Origin: Thermoanaerobaculia bacterium
Lineage (GTDB): Bacteria > Acidobacteriota > Thermoanaerobaculia > JALWYX01
Reading direction: 5' to 3'
Length of the DNA stretch: 38,923 nucleotides
NCBI GenBank assembly: GCA_027078415.1
Contig: JALWYX010000063.1
Span: 1-38,923, forward strand
Notes under the pieces: model-generated
The model's input: the letters and a program-made list of their open reading frames with translations, nothing else
The model's database searches: none
Told to the model about the DNA's origin: nothing
Made by a program: the position numbers and the translations under genes
In this document: positions 20,390-24,086 of the stretch, piece by piece
Numbering within the stretch: position 1 is the first letter of the stretch
Layout of the letters: each line of letters starts with the position of its first letter

Positions 20390-21349
20390 ATGTTAATGAT
20401 TTTTCTCTTTTTTATTATCCTGTCTCTTCTGTTCCTCAACGTAGGAGCAACTTTTTCTCAAGATAACTCTTCTCCTTCTCACGAAATCAGAGGCGAAATA
20501 TTTGTTAGCGAGATAGTGGTACCCGTTGTTGTTAAATCCAAAAAAGGTTTCGTTTTGAATTTGAAAAAAGAAGATTTTGTAGTGGAAGTTGATGGTAGAA
20601 AAGTGCCAATTAGTAGTTTTATTTCTTATCACTGGGGAGTTGTAGATATAACGTTTTTCGTAGATGTGTCAGGAAGCATGAAAGGCCATAGAATGGAAAG
20701 TGTGAGAAAATTTGTAAGTTACATTTTTGCTAATACTCTTCCCGGTGATAGGTTTTCTTTAGTAGTGTTTAGCAATAAACTTACTGCATTTCTTATATCT
20801 TCAACAGCGGATAAAAAAAAGATTTTACTAGCTTTGAGTAAGATTGAACCTTATGGAAAAACTGGGCTACACGATGCTTTGGCATGGATTCCAGAAATTT
20901 CAAAAAATCTTTTTCGTAAAAGGAAAGTTGTAGCTTTGTTCACAGACGGTAATGATAACATTAGCTATATCCAAGCAGAAGAAGCCAGAGATATAGCTAA
21001 AACTAGCAATTTGCCCATTTACGTTTTTGATTTGAAAGGATGGACGTCTCCAGTAACCAACACTAATATTTATGAGAAAGAGAACAGTGTGGAGATCTCG
21101 AAGGTGTTAAGAAAACTTGCCGAGGTAACAGGAGGTAAATATTATCTCGTGCCCGTTCCGGAACACGCGATTAAAACTGCTAGAAGATTTCTTACAGAGA
21201 TAAGAAGCCAATATAGGTTAACTTTCAAAGCTAAGGGTAAAGAAGAATCAACGCACAGGATAAAAGTTTACTTGAAATCCAAGCGCTTGAGAAAGAAATG
21301 CTCTCTTTCTTATCGTTCAATATATAAAGGACCTCCTCCCGTTTTCTAG
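20390..21349 (+). CDS. Secreted VWA-domain protein (VWFA-related Acidobacterial type)
   Basis: A 319-residue protein with a strongly hydrophobic signal peptide (to about residue 24). A small N-terminal domain (VPVVVKSKKGFVLNLKKEDF then EVDGRKVPISSF) has the pattern of the TIGR03436 family, followed by a von Willebrand A domain with an intact MIDAS: DVSGSM, a threonine in KTGLHDAL, and FTDGNDN. The end has YRLTFKAKGKEESTHRIKVYLK, also typical. Family members are common in Acidobacteriota and are presumed metal-dependent adhesion or complex-assembly factors outside the cytoplasm. Start is ATG 20390 or 20396. Confidence 0.88.
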   Translation: MLMIFLFFIILSLLFLNVGATFSQDNSSPSHEIRGEIFVSEIVVPVVVKSKKGFVLNLKKEDFVVEVDGRKVPISSFISYHWGVVDITFFVDVSGSMKGHRMESVRKFVSYIFANTLPGDRFSLVVFSNKLTAFLISSTADKKKILLALSKIEPYGKTGLHDALAWIPEISKNLFRKRKVVALFTDGNDNISYIQAEEARDIAKTSNLPIYVFDLKGWTSPVTNTNIYEKENSVEISKVLRKLAEVTGGKYYLVPVPEHAIKTARRFLTEIRSQYRLTFKAKGKEESTHRIKVYLKSKRLRKKCSLSYRSIYKGPPPVF

Positions 21350-21393
21350 TTTTTATCTTTGAGTAACCCAGTCCCAGTGCAGTAAATGTTTTT

Positions 21394-21422
21394 TTGTATA
21401 TTTGTTAAAATTGGTGTATTAT
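21394..21422 (+). promoter_or_regulatory. Candidate promoter of the Pal-like lipoprotein gene
   Basis: TTGTAT (21394-21399), a 17-base spacer and TATTAT (21417-21422) make a good sigma-70-like pair in the 209-base gap after the VWA gene. It implies a leader of about 130 bases before the ATG at 21559, where GGAGGTTTAGGAG supplies the ribosome binding site. No riboswitch fold was recognised in the leader. Confidence 0.5.
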
Positions 21423-21558
21423 CTGGTCACTTTGTCGAAGTTTGAAGTTGTTTAGAGGAGGGTTTGTTCTATTTGAAAGTCGGTTGCTAGGTAACGGTTT
21501 TTTGAATAAACTAACATTACATCGTTATTTGGAATTAAAAATTATGGAGGTTTAGGAG

Positions 21559-22173
21559 ATGAAGGAAGTGAGTAAATTTGTTGTTCTTTCGATAGTTTTC
21601 TATAGTGTTGTGGGGTGTGCTAGCAAAAAATACGTTCAAGAACAGATTCAGACAGAATCAGCTGCTATTCACACACGGATAGATAGTGTTGAAGGTCAGA
21701 TAGAGGAGAACCAAATAAAACTCAAGGAGCATGAGAAACAGATAATGGAGCTCTCTTCAACTGCTCAGGAAGCTCTGAAAAGAGCCACAGAAGCGGGCAA
21801 ATTGGCTAAAGGTAAATTACTCTACGAGATAGTTTTATCTGAGGATAAAGTGAGATTTGGTTTTGGTGAGGCGGAACTTAGTGAAGAGGCAAAAGCTGCT
21901 ATAGATGAAATTATAGGTCCTATAGTTGCTCAGAATAGAAATGTCTATTTTGAAATTCAAGGGCATACAGATTCTACCGGTAGTGAGGAATACAATTACA
22001 GGCTTGGACTTAAAAGGGCTGAAGCAGTGAGAAGATACCTAAATCTTCGTTATAGAATTCCTCTTCATAGAATTTCTGTAATTTCTTATGGAGAAACAGT
22101 TCCGATAGCAGATAATAGTACTCCGGAAGGGAGAGCTAAAAACAGACGTGTGGTTATCCTAGTTCTTGAATAG
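21559..22173 (+). CDS. OmpA/Pal-family peptidoglycan-associated lipoprotein
   Basis: A 204-residue lipoprotein. The N-terminus has a hydrophobic signal with lipobox VVGC at about residues 17-20, then a coiled coil (residues about 24-85, EEN...KEHEKQIMELSSTAQEALKRA). It ends in an OmpA C-terminal domain with VYFEIQGHTDSTGSEEYNYRLGLKRAEAVRRYL, VISYGETVPIADN and GRAKNRRV, the segments that hold diaminopimelate in peptidoglycan. It should tether the outer membrane to the wall. The coiled coil between anchor and OmpA domain is longer than in standard Pal and may set the width of the periplasm. Its 3' end overlaps the convergent glycosylase gene by 20 bases. Confidence 0.93.
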   Translation: MKEVSKFVVLSIVFYSVVGCASKKYVQEQIQTESAAIHTRIDSVEGQIEENQIKLKEHEKQIMELSSTAQEALKRATEAGKLAKGKLLYEIVLSEDKVRFGFGEAELSEEAKAAIDEIIGPIVAQNRNVYFEIQGHTDSTGSEEYNYRLGLKRAEAVRRYLNLRYRIPLHRISVISYGETVPIADNSTPEGRAKNRRVVILVLE

Positions 22174-22771
22174 TTTTTCTGTCGTTTACTTGCCATAGGT
22201 ACCACGCTGCTACACTTTTCCAAGGATTAAATCTATCTCCTATTTTTTCCATCTCTTCAATCGAAGAGATGGAAAAAATTTTTTCTATACTTCTGCGTAT
22301 TCCTAGATCAGCTAGGGGCCAAACGTTTTTTCTTCCTAGACCAAATATTAAAGCCATTTGAGCACTCCAAAGACCTATGCCTTTTATTTTTGTTATTTCT
22401 TTTATAAAGAGATTGTCTGTTAAAACTTCTATTTCCTTTAATTCCCCTCTGCTTTCTAAATACGCTATTCTTTTGATCGTTTCTATTTTACTTTTGGATA
22501 AGCCGATTTTCCTTAACCTTTCAAAGTCTATATCGTTTATCTTTTCCGGACTTAATTTGTCCGTTACGTGAGCGAGTTTATAAAACATTTTTCTGGCTGT
22601 TTTGTTTGCTATTTGCTGCCCTACAACTGCCCTTATAAGAGATGGGTATAAACCGTGGATACCCCATCGGTAATTCTCACCGTATATTTTTATCAATTTT
22701 TTTAAAGTAGGATCTTTTTTCAATGTTTTTATAGCTGAAGGGGACTTTAAAACGTATCCTAAATGTTTCAT
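22154..22771 (-). CDS. HhH-GPD DNA glycosylase (AlkA-like, 3-methyladenine)
   Basis: A 205-residue base-excision repair glycosylase. It shows LIRAVVGQQIANKTARK (about 45-61), the helix-hairpin-helix ITKIKGIGLWSAQMALIF (about 126-143) and the catalytic aspartate Asp155 in WPLADLGIRR. It lacks the N-terminal beta domain of E. coli AlkA, like the short thermophile glycosylases. ATG 22771 is preferred over a TTG at 22780 because the TTG falls inside the terminator of the upstream gene. No Shine-Dalgarno sequence is visible. The coding strand contains a 17-bp perfect palindrome near the C-terminus that may serve as a terminator for the opposite strand. Confidence 0.9.
   Translation of the reverse strand: MKHLGYVLKSPSAIKTLKKDPTLKKLIKIYGENYRWGIHGLYPSLIRAVVGQQIANKTARKMFYKLAHVTDKLSPEKINDIDFERLRKIGLSKSKIETIKRIAYLESRGELKEIEVLTDNLFIKEITKIKGIGLWSAQMALIFGLGRKNVWPLADLGIRRSIEKIFSISSIEEMEKIGDRFNPWKSVAAWYLWQVNDRKTIQELG
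22242..22284 (+). terminator. Candidate terminator of the Pal gene inside the antisense glycosylase gene
   Basis: Arms 22242-22258 and 22263-22279 pair perfectly over 17 bp around a four-base AATC loop, with core CCATCTCTTC/GAAGAGATGG. The second arm runs into a tract of six T (22279-22284). Read on the plus strand this has the layout of an intrinsic terminator 69 bases after the stop of the Pal-like gene, although the stem is less G+C-rich than usual. Confidence 0.6.
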
Positions 22772-22778
22772 TGCAAGC

Positions 22779-22818
22779 AAAAAAGGGGAGAACCCTTTTC
22801 AGAGTCTCCCCTTTTTTT
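22779..22818 (-). terminator. Intrinsic terminator of the DUF4785-like/lipase cassette
   Basis: GGGGAGA (22785-22791) and TCTCCCC (22805-22811) form a 7-bp G+C-rich stem extended by A/T runs on both sides. On the minus strand it ends in a T run, 24 bases after the stop of the upstream gene at 22842. The A/T flanks on both sides would also let it work on the plus strand. Confidence 0.85.
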
Positions 22819-22841
22819 ACATCTAGAGAAGGGGTAAGCTT

Positions 22842-24086
22842 TTATTGTTTCTGCCTTAGCGGAATATTTCCTCCTCCGTTTGATGGAGGTGGAGTATAAC
22901 CTGTAAAGTCAAAAGAGTATCCTTTTTCTAATATAGCGACTCTGCTTTGATCTATCAATGTTACTCCTTTAATTCTATATTTCCTAAATTTTTTGTTTCT
23001 CAAAAGTCTTTTATCTGCTCTAAGAGTTATGACATCTTTGCCACTTTCCAGCCACTTGGCAGAATCTAAAACAGCTATAGGTACTTCTCTGGAACCGGCT
23101 AATCCGTACAGGTAACCTTTAACTTCGTATCTTCCAGGTGAAGCTACTTCTACTCCTATATGGATTTCTAAAGGAGCATTTTTTGCCACAAATGCTCTTG
23201 CTTCTCCTGTTAACCTCGCTGTAGGGAAGGAAACTCCTACGCCTACTCCACTACTTCTTCTTACCTTGATTCCATCCTTATTACCGCTTACGTGTATTTC
23301 GTACTCCCACAATCCTTGATGTATATCACGGGAGTTGATTTTTGCATATGCAGTGATTGTACCGTTTTCATCTTTAAAGGATAAAGGAATCTTATCACCG
23401 TTAGGGGAGAGTAAATACCCTTCGTAATGCGACAGATCGATCTTTTCATCTTCTTTGAGTAGTTCTACTGTTACTTGTATGCTTTCTCCTACAAGATAAG
23501 TGTCTTTTGTAGCTTGTGTTGCTAAGACAAATGGACTATCCTTTTCACGCACATGTACTATATATTCCGTTGATGGGTCGGCATTTAGATTTTGAGCTTT
23601 GAGTATAAAAGAGCCACTCCCTAGTTCCTCTTTTATTTTAAATATGGAGGTAAGGGAGGCTTCCTCTTGGGATAAGGTTTTTAGTCCGTTTTCAGTAGAG
23701 CTACTTCCTTGTTTATATATGGAGATATTAGGAGATAGAGCGTTTCTTTTTATTTCTAACTCGTTTGGAGAATTCGCTATAGGTGCCACTCTTAGGATAG
23801 CTCCAGGTACAGTAGTGTCGATTTTAACTCCCTTAGACAGTTCAGCTGCTGTTGTTTTATACCAGTATTCTCTGCTTGCATCTTTAAAAGCTTCCTGGTT
23901 GAAGTTTATCTGCTGTTTGTTATCTAGTGGCATACTGAGTATCATCTCTTGTGTAGGTGCTTTCCTAACACTTCTAACGTTTACCAACTGGGATTCTGAA
24001 TTTTCGTTTTTAAAAATTATCAGCTCTTGTGCGTTTAGTAGACTTAATGCCGTTATAGAACAGGTTAAGATTATAGTTTTTTTCAT
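22842..24086 (-). CDS. Secreted protein, probably DUF4785-like
   Basis: A 414-residue exported protein with signal peptide (KKTIILTCSITALSLLNAQ). The segment REYWYKTTAAELSKGVKIDTTVPGAILRVAPI recalls DUF4785 proteins of Gammaproteobacteria, a tentative match from memory. The rest is beta-rich: an Ig-like stretch with ATKDTYLVGESIQVTVELLK, then LWEYEIHVSGNKDG and a domain with VASPGRYEVKGYLYG. The tail is Gly/Pro/Asn-rich (TPPPSNGGGNIP). It follows the lipase gene by 19 bases in a cassette with its own promoter and terminator, so a joint extracellular role is likely. Cargo or substrate is unknown. Confidence 0.72.
   Translation of the reverse strand: MKKTIILTCSITALSLLNAQELIIFKNENSESQLVNVRSVRKAPTQEMILSMPLDNKQQINFNQEAFKDASREYWYKTTAAELSKGVKIDTTVPGAILRVAPIANSPNELEIKRNALSPNISIYKQGSSSTENGLKTLSQEEASLTSIFKIKEELGSGSFILKAQNLNADPSTEYIVHVREKDSPFVLATQATKDTYLVGESIQVTVELLKEDEKIDLSHYEGYLLSPNGDKIPLSFKDENGTITAYAKINSRDIHQGLWEYEIHVSGNKDGIKVRRSSGVGVGVSFPTARLTGEARAFVAKNAPLEIHIGVEVASPGRYEVKGYLYGLAGSREVPIAVLDSAKWLESGKDVITLRADKRLLRNKKFRKYRIKGVTLIDQSRVAILEKGYSFDFTGYTPPPSNGGGNIPLRQKQ

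Follow-up and report, generated by a model that had tools for sequence, protein, structure and literature searches.

Two genes of a Thermoanaerobaculia bacterium converge and overlap by their tails in the stretch of DNA analysed here (the window, 38,923 nucleotides), and the locus raises the question of whether the transcription stop signal of one gene is written inside the coding sequence of the other. The forward-strand gene at 21559-22173 (+) encodes a Pal/OmpA-like lipoprotein of 204 amino acids (PF00691, E = 3.9e-22), which carries a lipobox-like VVGC motif near its N-terminus. Its neighbour at 22154-22771 (-) encodes an HhH-GPD DNA glycosylase (PF00730, E = 4.8e-12) of 205 amino acids from the ATG at 22771; in the list of open reading frames the same gene starts with a TTG at 22780 (22154-22780, -). 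The tail-to-tail overlap of these convergent frames is 20 bases, as the earlier note on this DNA had described. Upstream of the glycosylase gene, a gene for a DUF4785 protein was found at 22842-24086 (-) from the list of open reading frames and a domain match, and none of 120 glycosylase homologue loci has a relative of the Pal or DUF4785 genes alongside.

Form and position of the embedded hairpin

The sequence and geometry of the hairpin can be read directly from the DNA. Entirely within the glycosylase coding DNA, the 5' arm (22242-22258, +) and the 3' arm (22263-22279, +) form a perfect 17-bp stem around the four-nucleotide loop AATC (22259-22262, +), and a listing of repeats returned the same two arms as a 17-nt pair with 100% complementarity. 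A T-run at 22279-22284 (+) follows before a C, with T22279 doubling as the last stem base, so that the U-run starts no more than about 2 nt from the stem, as in an intrinsic terminator. The hairpin starts about 68-69 nt past the Pal stop, in agreement with the earlier note, which had reported a 17-bp perfect stem, a four-base loop and six T at 69 bases from this stop. The Pal-like gene is on the same strand and lies at most 200 nt upstream, the limit set for assigning downstream terminators in an excerpt of PMC12207403.

The plus-strand RNA of 22242-22290 was predicted to fold at -22.3 kcal/mol into a stable short-loop hairpin, and the RNA of 22230-22300 at -23.0 kcal/mol on the plus strand (z = -8.0) and at -24.9 kcal/mol on the minus strand; in each case none of 200 shuffles did as well. 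The strand asymmetry is equally visible, as the minus strand continues beyond the stem as AGGAGAUAG / AGGAGAUAGAUU, without a U-run. Since this minus-strand U-run is missing and the hairpin lies before the glycosylase stop, it would serve one strand only.

Intrinsic terminators usually, though not obligatorily, have a G+C-rich stem, especially at the base beside the U-run. The embedded hairpin resembles a Rho-independent terminator in its short loop, the U-run directly after the stem and its position downstream of a same-strand stop codon. It differs in lying completely inside the convergent gene's coding sequence, in its A-U stem base and in its GC content of 29%, the lowest among the 40 best hairpin+T sites listed (next lowest, 37%). 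Five of the 17 pairs are G-C, all in the upper 10 bp, and the seven basal pairs beside the U-run consist of A-U only, the A's lying in the 3' arm except for one T-A at the very end. This layout is the reverse of the A-tract/U-tract arrangement of several intergenic terminators of the same genome.

From these features we infer that the hairpin stops transcription, probably as an intrinsic (Rho-independent) terminator that serves the Pal-like lipoprotein gene in one direction only; its form, its strand, the T-run and its position all speak for this reading, and a terminator of the Pal-like gene is what the earlier note had proposed. RNA polymerase leaving the Pal-like gene would enter the 3' part of the glycosylase gene in the antisense direction for 69 nt, the nascent RNA would fold into the 17-bp hairpin, and the polymerase would be released on the U-run, with the transcript 3' end expected at about 22284-22288. 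In this way Pal-derived antisense RNA would reach over about 130 nt at the 3' end of the glycosylase gene and no farther; without the embedded signal it would cover nearly the whole gene. The hairpin might possibly also slow or fold the glycosylase mRNA.

Any read-through from the Pal-like gene would meet a second hairpin at 22779-22817, between the DUF4785 and glycosylase genes, which has 13 bp, a 13-nt loop and A6 before and T6 after it, and can be read on both strands (-19.3 kcal/mol on the minus strand, -13.1 kcal/mol on the plus strand). This hairpin is predicted to be the minus-strand terminator of the DUF4785 gene, of the bidirectional type, and, being terminator-like on the plus strand too, it is a possible back-stop about 610 nt past the Pal stop. 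Just 7 nt separate its end from the probable start codon of the glycosylase gene (ATG at 22771), and the last 20 nt before this ATG show no purine run resembling a Shine-Dalgarno sequence.

Comparable sites and palindromes in the same genome

A genome sample of 61 stretches (951,584 bases with 5,795 N; 807 genes called by a simple purpose-made gene caller) was searched on either strand for single hairpins that precede a stretch with at least six T in eight. Sites at -10 kcal/mol or below numbered 150, among which the embedded hairpin is fourth by energy and first among those in coding sequences. At -16 or below there are 20 sites, comprising 16 intergenic, two antisense and two sense to coding sequences; coding sequences make up 91% of the DNA, and strong hairpin+T sites therefore mark gene ends here. 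The other strong terminators of the genome show that this bacterium uses intrinsic termination. Among the four coding sites at this level, the embedded hairpin alone lies no more than 150 nt downstream of a stop on its own strand; for the other three the nearest such stop is 210 nt away, 3,890 nt away and absent from the stretch. The strand-specific coding DNA within 150 nt past a convergent stop amounts to 0.83% of coding sequence, so that with four coding sites about 0.03 would be expected there by chance.

Of the 16 intergenic sites at this level of -16, 14 are found 10-33 nt beyond a stop on their own strand (the other two at 76 and 763 nt). At 68-69 nt, the embedded hairpin is farther from its stop than these 14. 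Its distance falls in the range of median 3'-end distances of 37-91 nt given for several bacteria in the excerpt of PMC12207403. In E. coli, as part of PMC4824070 describes, a terminator near the stop codon was repressed by the ribosome and its efficiency rose with distance; by analogy, the extra distance at this locus may help termination.

Tail-to-tail arrangements are common in the sample, as 42 of its 89 convergent pairs overlap (29 pairs) or are no more than 20 nt apart, giving 84 gene ends. A site at -12 or below occurs at one of these ends, the embedded hairpin itself, versus 7 of 846 antisense-coding control places; at -10 or below the counts are 3 of 84 versus 16 of 846, and with a stricter tail one of the 84 ends reaches -6. 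No comparable hairpin+T site was found at the other 83 ends of the 42 pairs, and this count rules out that the genome generally embeds terminators where genes meet tail to tail. The premise of the earlier note that such a pair needs an embedded terminator is not borne out, given the single strong site among 84 ends and the presence of a rho gene in the genome.

The rarity of the palindrome was counted directly as perfect stems with loops of 3-10 in the 802 coding sequences without N (862,701 bp; about 868 kb of coding DNA overall). There are 39 stems of 9 bp, nine of 10 bp, two of 11 bp, one of 13 bp and one of 17 bp, which is the embedded hairpin; it is thus the longest perfect short-loop stem in about 868 kb of coding sequence, with a runner-up of 13 bp. 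Over 40 synonymous recodings of all coding sequences, the mean numbers of stems of 9 to 14 bp were 28.0, 8.0, 2.2, 0.35, 0.17 and 0.05, and no stem exceeded 14 bp, which is in keeping with the earlier view that such a palindrome is unlikely by chance. The 52 observed stems of at least 9 bp represent just a mild excess over the roughly 39 expected from recoding. When the glycosylase gene alone was recoded with the codon usage of the genome, stems of at least 14 bp appeared in 684 of 222,783 copies and stems of at least 17 bp in 85, about a 1-in-2,600 draw, and such chance figures overstate the significance because the hairpin was chosen as an oddity in a scan; a rare hairpin would be expected now and then when many genomes are scanned. 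The glycosylase peptide favours a palindrome more than most genes do, and chance alone accounts poorly for this one. In intergenic DNA, perfect hairpins of 15-18 bp without an adjoining T-run were seen at L133 11544-11584, L127 2678-2714, L158 4141-4174 and L173 18595-18630.

Coding context and origin of the palindrome

The coding context can likewise be observed directly. Read on the minus strand, the stem encodes IFSISSIEEMEKI; the ISSIEEMEKI given in the earlier note is correct for those residues and leaves out the first three. An AlphaFold2 model of the glycosylase (mean pLDDT 91.2, from a 20-row alignment) places the end of a helix (156-166) at the F of IFSISS, a linker at 167-170 (SISS) and the start of the next helix (171-179) at IEEMEKI. 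The 3' arm thus encodes IFSISS, which comprises the end of the helix and the short variable linker, and the 5' arm approximately EEMEKI, the first half of the conserved helix. The homologues vary in both sequence and length of this linker, which joins a helix to the helix region with WxPWRSxA. The spacer from PxxD to WxPW is 25 residues here and 28 residues in 79 of the 106 homologues showing both motifs, six others having 25 (14 of 120 homologues without a motif were left out). Pairing with GATGG, around the fixed Met codon, involves the linker codons TCC and ATC, and both are rare, TCC accounting for 10% of Ser codons (fifth of six) and ATC for 12% of Ile codons (third of three). It is this arrangement, with one arm over a linker whose sequence and length both vary and the other over a helix start, that would have let coding DNA accommodate the signal.

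None of the 120 glycosylase homologue genes contains a perfect stem longer than 10 bp. The 59 relatives searched first included none nearer than the same class; the best homologues in the phylum sample are 36-41% identical (87 of 396 genomes at E 1e-20 or better), those in the genome contigs searched reach 39% identity, and no homologue above about 41% was found in either. Taken together, the linker length, the rare linker codons and the lack of long stems in the homologues point to an origin of the palindrome in this lineage through a change of the linker, by selection, by template switching or by both. As the conserved WxPWRSxA helix follows the palindrome in the glycosylase reading direction, the signal would have arisen inside existing coding DNA; the conserved helix and the near-invariant motif (here FNPWKSVA) that follow exclude an origin as an intergenic terminator over which the glycosylase gene later extended. 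In this motif, the glycosylase has a Phe at 22229-22231 (-) before PW[RK]S, where at least 90% of the aligned homologues have Trp.

We further infer that the hairpin was selected for. It is conceivable, if rather doubtful, that the demand of the Pal terminator shaped the convergent neighbour, so that selection fixed a shortened and re-coded linker with rare synonymous codons in a conserved DNA-repair enzyme; the same DNA would then encode a portion of a protein domain on one strand while its other strand carries a transcription stop.

The palindrome might instead be functionless, coincidental or mutational in origin, which we consider unlikely. Its 10-bp core (CCATCTCTTC/GAAGAGATGG) would then derive from chance or from copying by template switching within the linker, and the A and T runs that come with Lys, Phe and Ile codons in an AT-rich genome would have extended it. 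Coding stems of 10 bp are indeed not rare (nine seen, eight expected from recoding), the seven outer pairs stem from AAA/TTT-type codons at residues typical of the family, and the share of glycosylase recodings with at least 14 bp is far above that of the average gene. The linker also lacks three residues compared with most homologues, which points to an indel just there, and the other tail-to-tail ends have no such site. However, the full 17 bp is improbable even given the peptide, and the mild excess of shorter stems indicates that palindrome-making mutation is no general habit of this genome. Place, strand and T-run, moreover, all suit a useful terminator, at a kind of position that takes up under one hundredth of strand-specific coding sequence.

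Rho, known systems and what the hairpin may mean

Most gene ends in the sample have no intrinsic terminator, and the compact genome probably leans on Rho. The hairpin could accordingly be a processing or stability element that blocks 3' exonucleases in the Pal or glycosylase mRNA or is cut as double-stranded RNA, with Rho terminating further on. The encoded Rho, the bare gene ends, the strong folding on both strands and the long intergenic hairpins without a T-run at L133 and L158 would all fit such a role, but a T-run directly after the stem, on the Pal strand only, is not needed for processing, and we regard this explanation as very improbable. A bidirectional terminator is ruled out by the missing U-run on the minus strand. 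A dispersed repeat, such as a REP or uptake-sequence hairpin, is likewise ruled out, as the hairpin is unique in the 1,956,489-base assembly: a DNA search found no second copy, and a pattern search allowing up to three mismatches found two other places (three matches in all per strand versus five for a reversed control). No Rfam family matched 21000-23500 at the gathering score, which speaks against a known structured RNA family.

For the preferred reading as an intrinsic terminator of the Pal-like gene, known systems offer partial parallels. The coding sequence of a convergent neighbour can hold termination sites, as part of a review on overlapping 3' UTRs and excludon-type overlap describes (PMC7154746). 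The locus resembles this type of overlap in the proposed 3' end within the neighbour's coding sequence and the short antisense overlap, and differs in that the predicted stop signal is an unusually long perfect palindrome coding for part of an enzyme. Bidirectional terminators between convergent genes have been reported in Zymomonas mobilis (PMC7566282) and Rickettsia prowazekii (PMC3027695); they share the convergent arrangement and the symmetrical stem, whereas the embedded hairpin has no minus-strand U-run and lies before the glycosylase stop. In the literature searched, no paper was recognised on exactly such a coding palindrome. Transcription stops within a neighbour's coding sequence have thus already been described, and the embedded hairpin would be a striking further case with a plausible function, most likely an ordinary stop signal that is unusual for its location and not for its mode of action.

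Caution is needed in generalising, as most tail-to-tail pairs in the same genome lack such a signal. If the hairpin works as proposed, it would be a clear stop signal written in the coding sequence of a neighbour, and the coding compromise would be visible in the variable linker under one arm, the conserved helix under the other and the rare codons at positions required for pairing. If this is true, it would show that a compact genome needs no extra DNA to insulate one particular pair of tail-to-tail genes.
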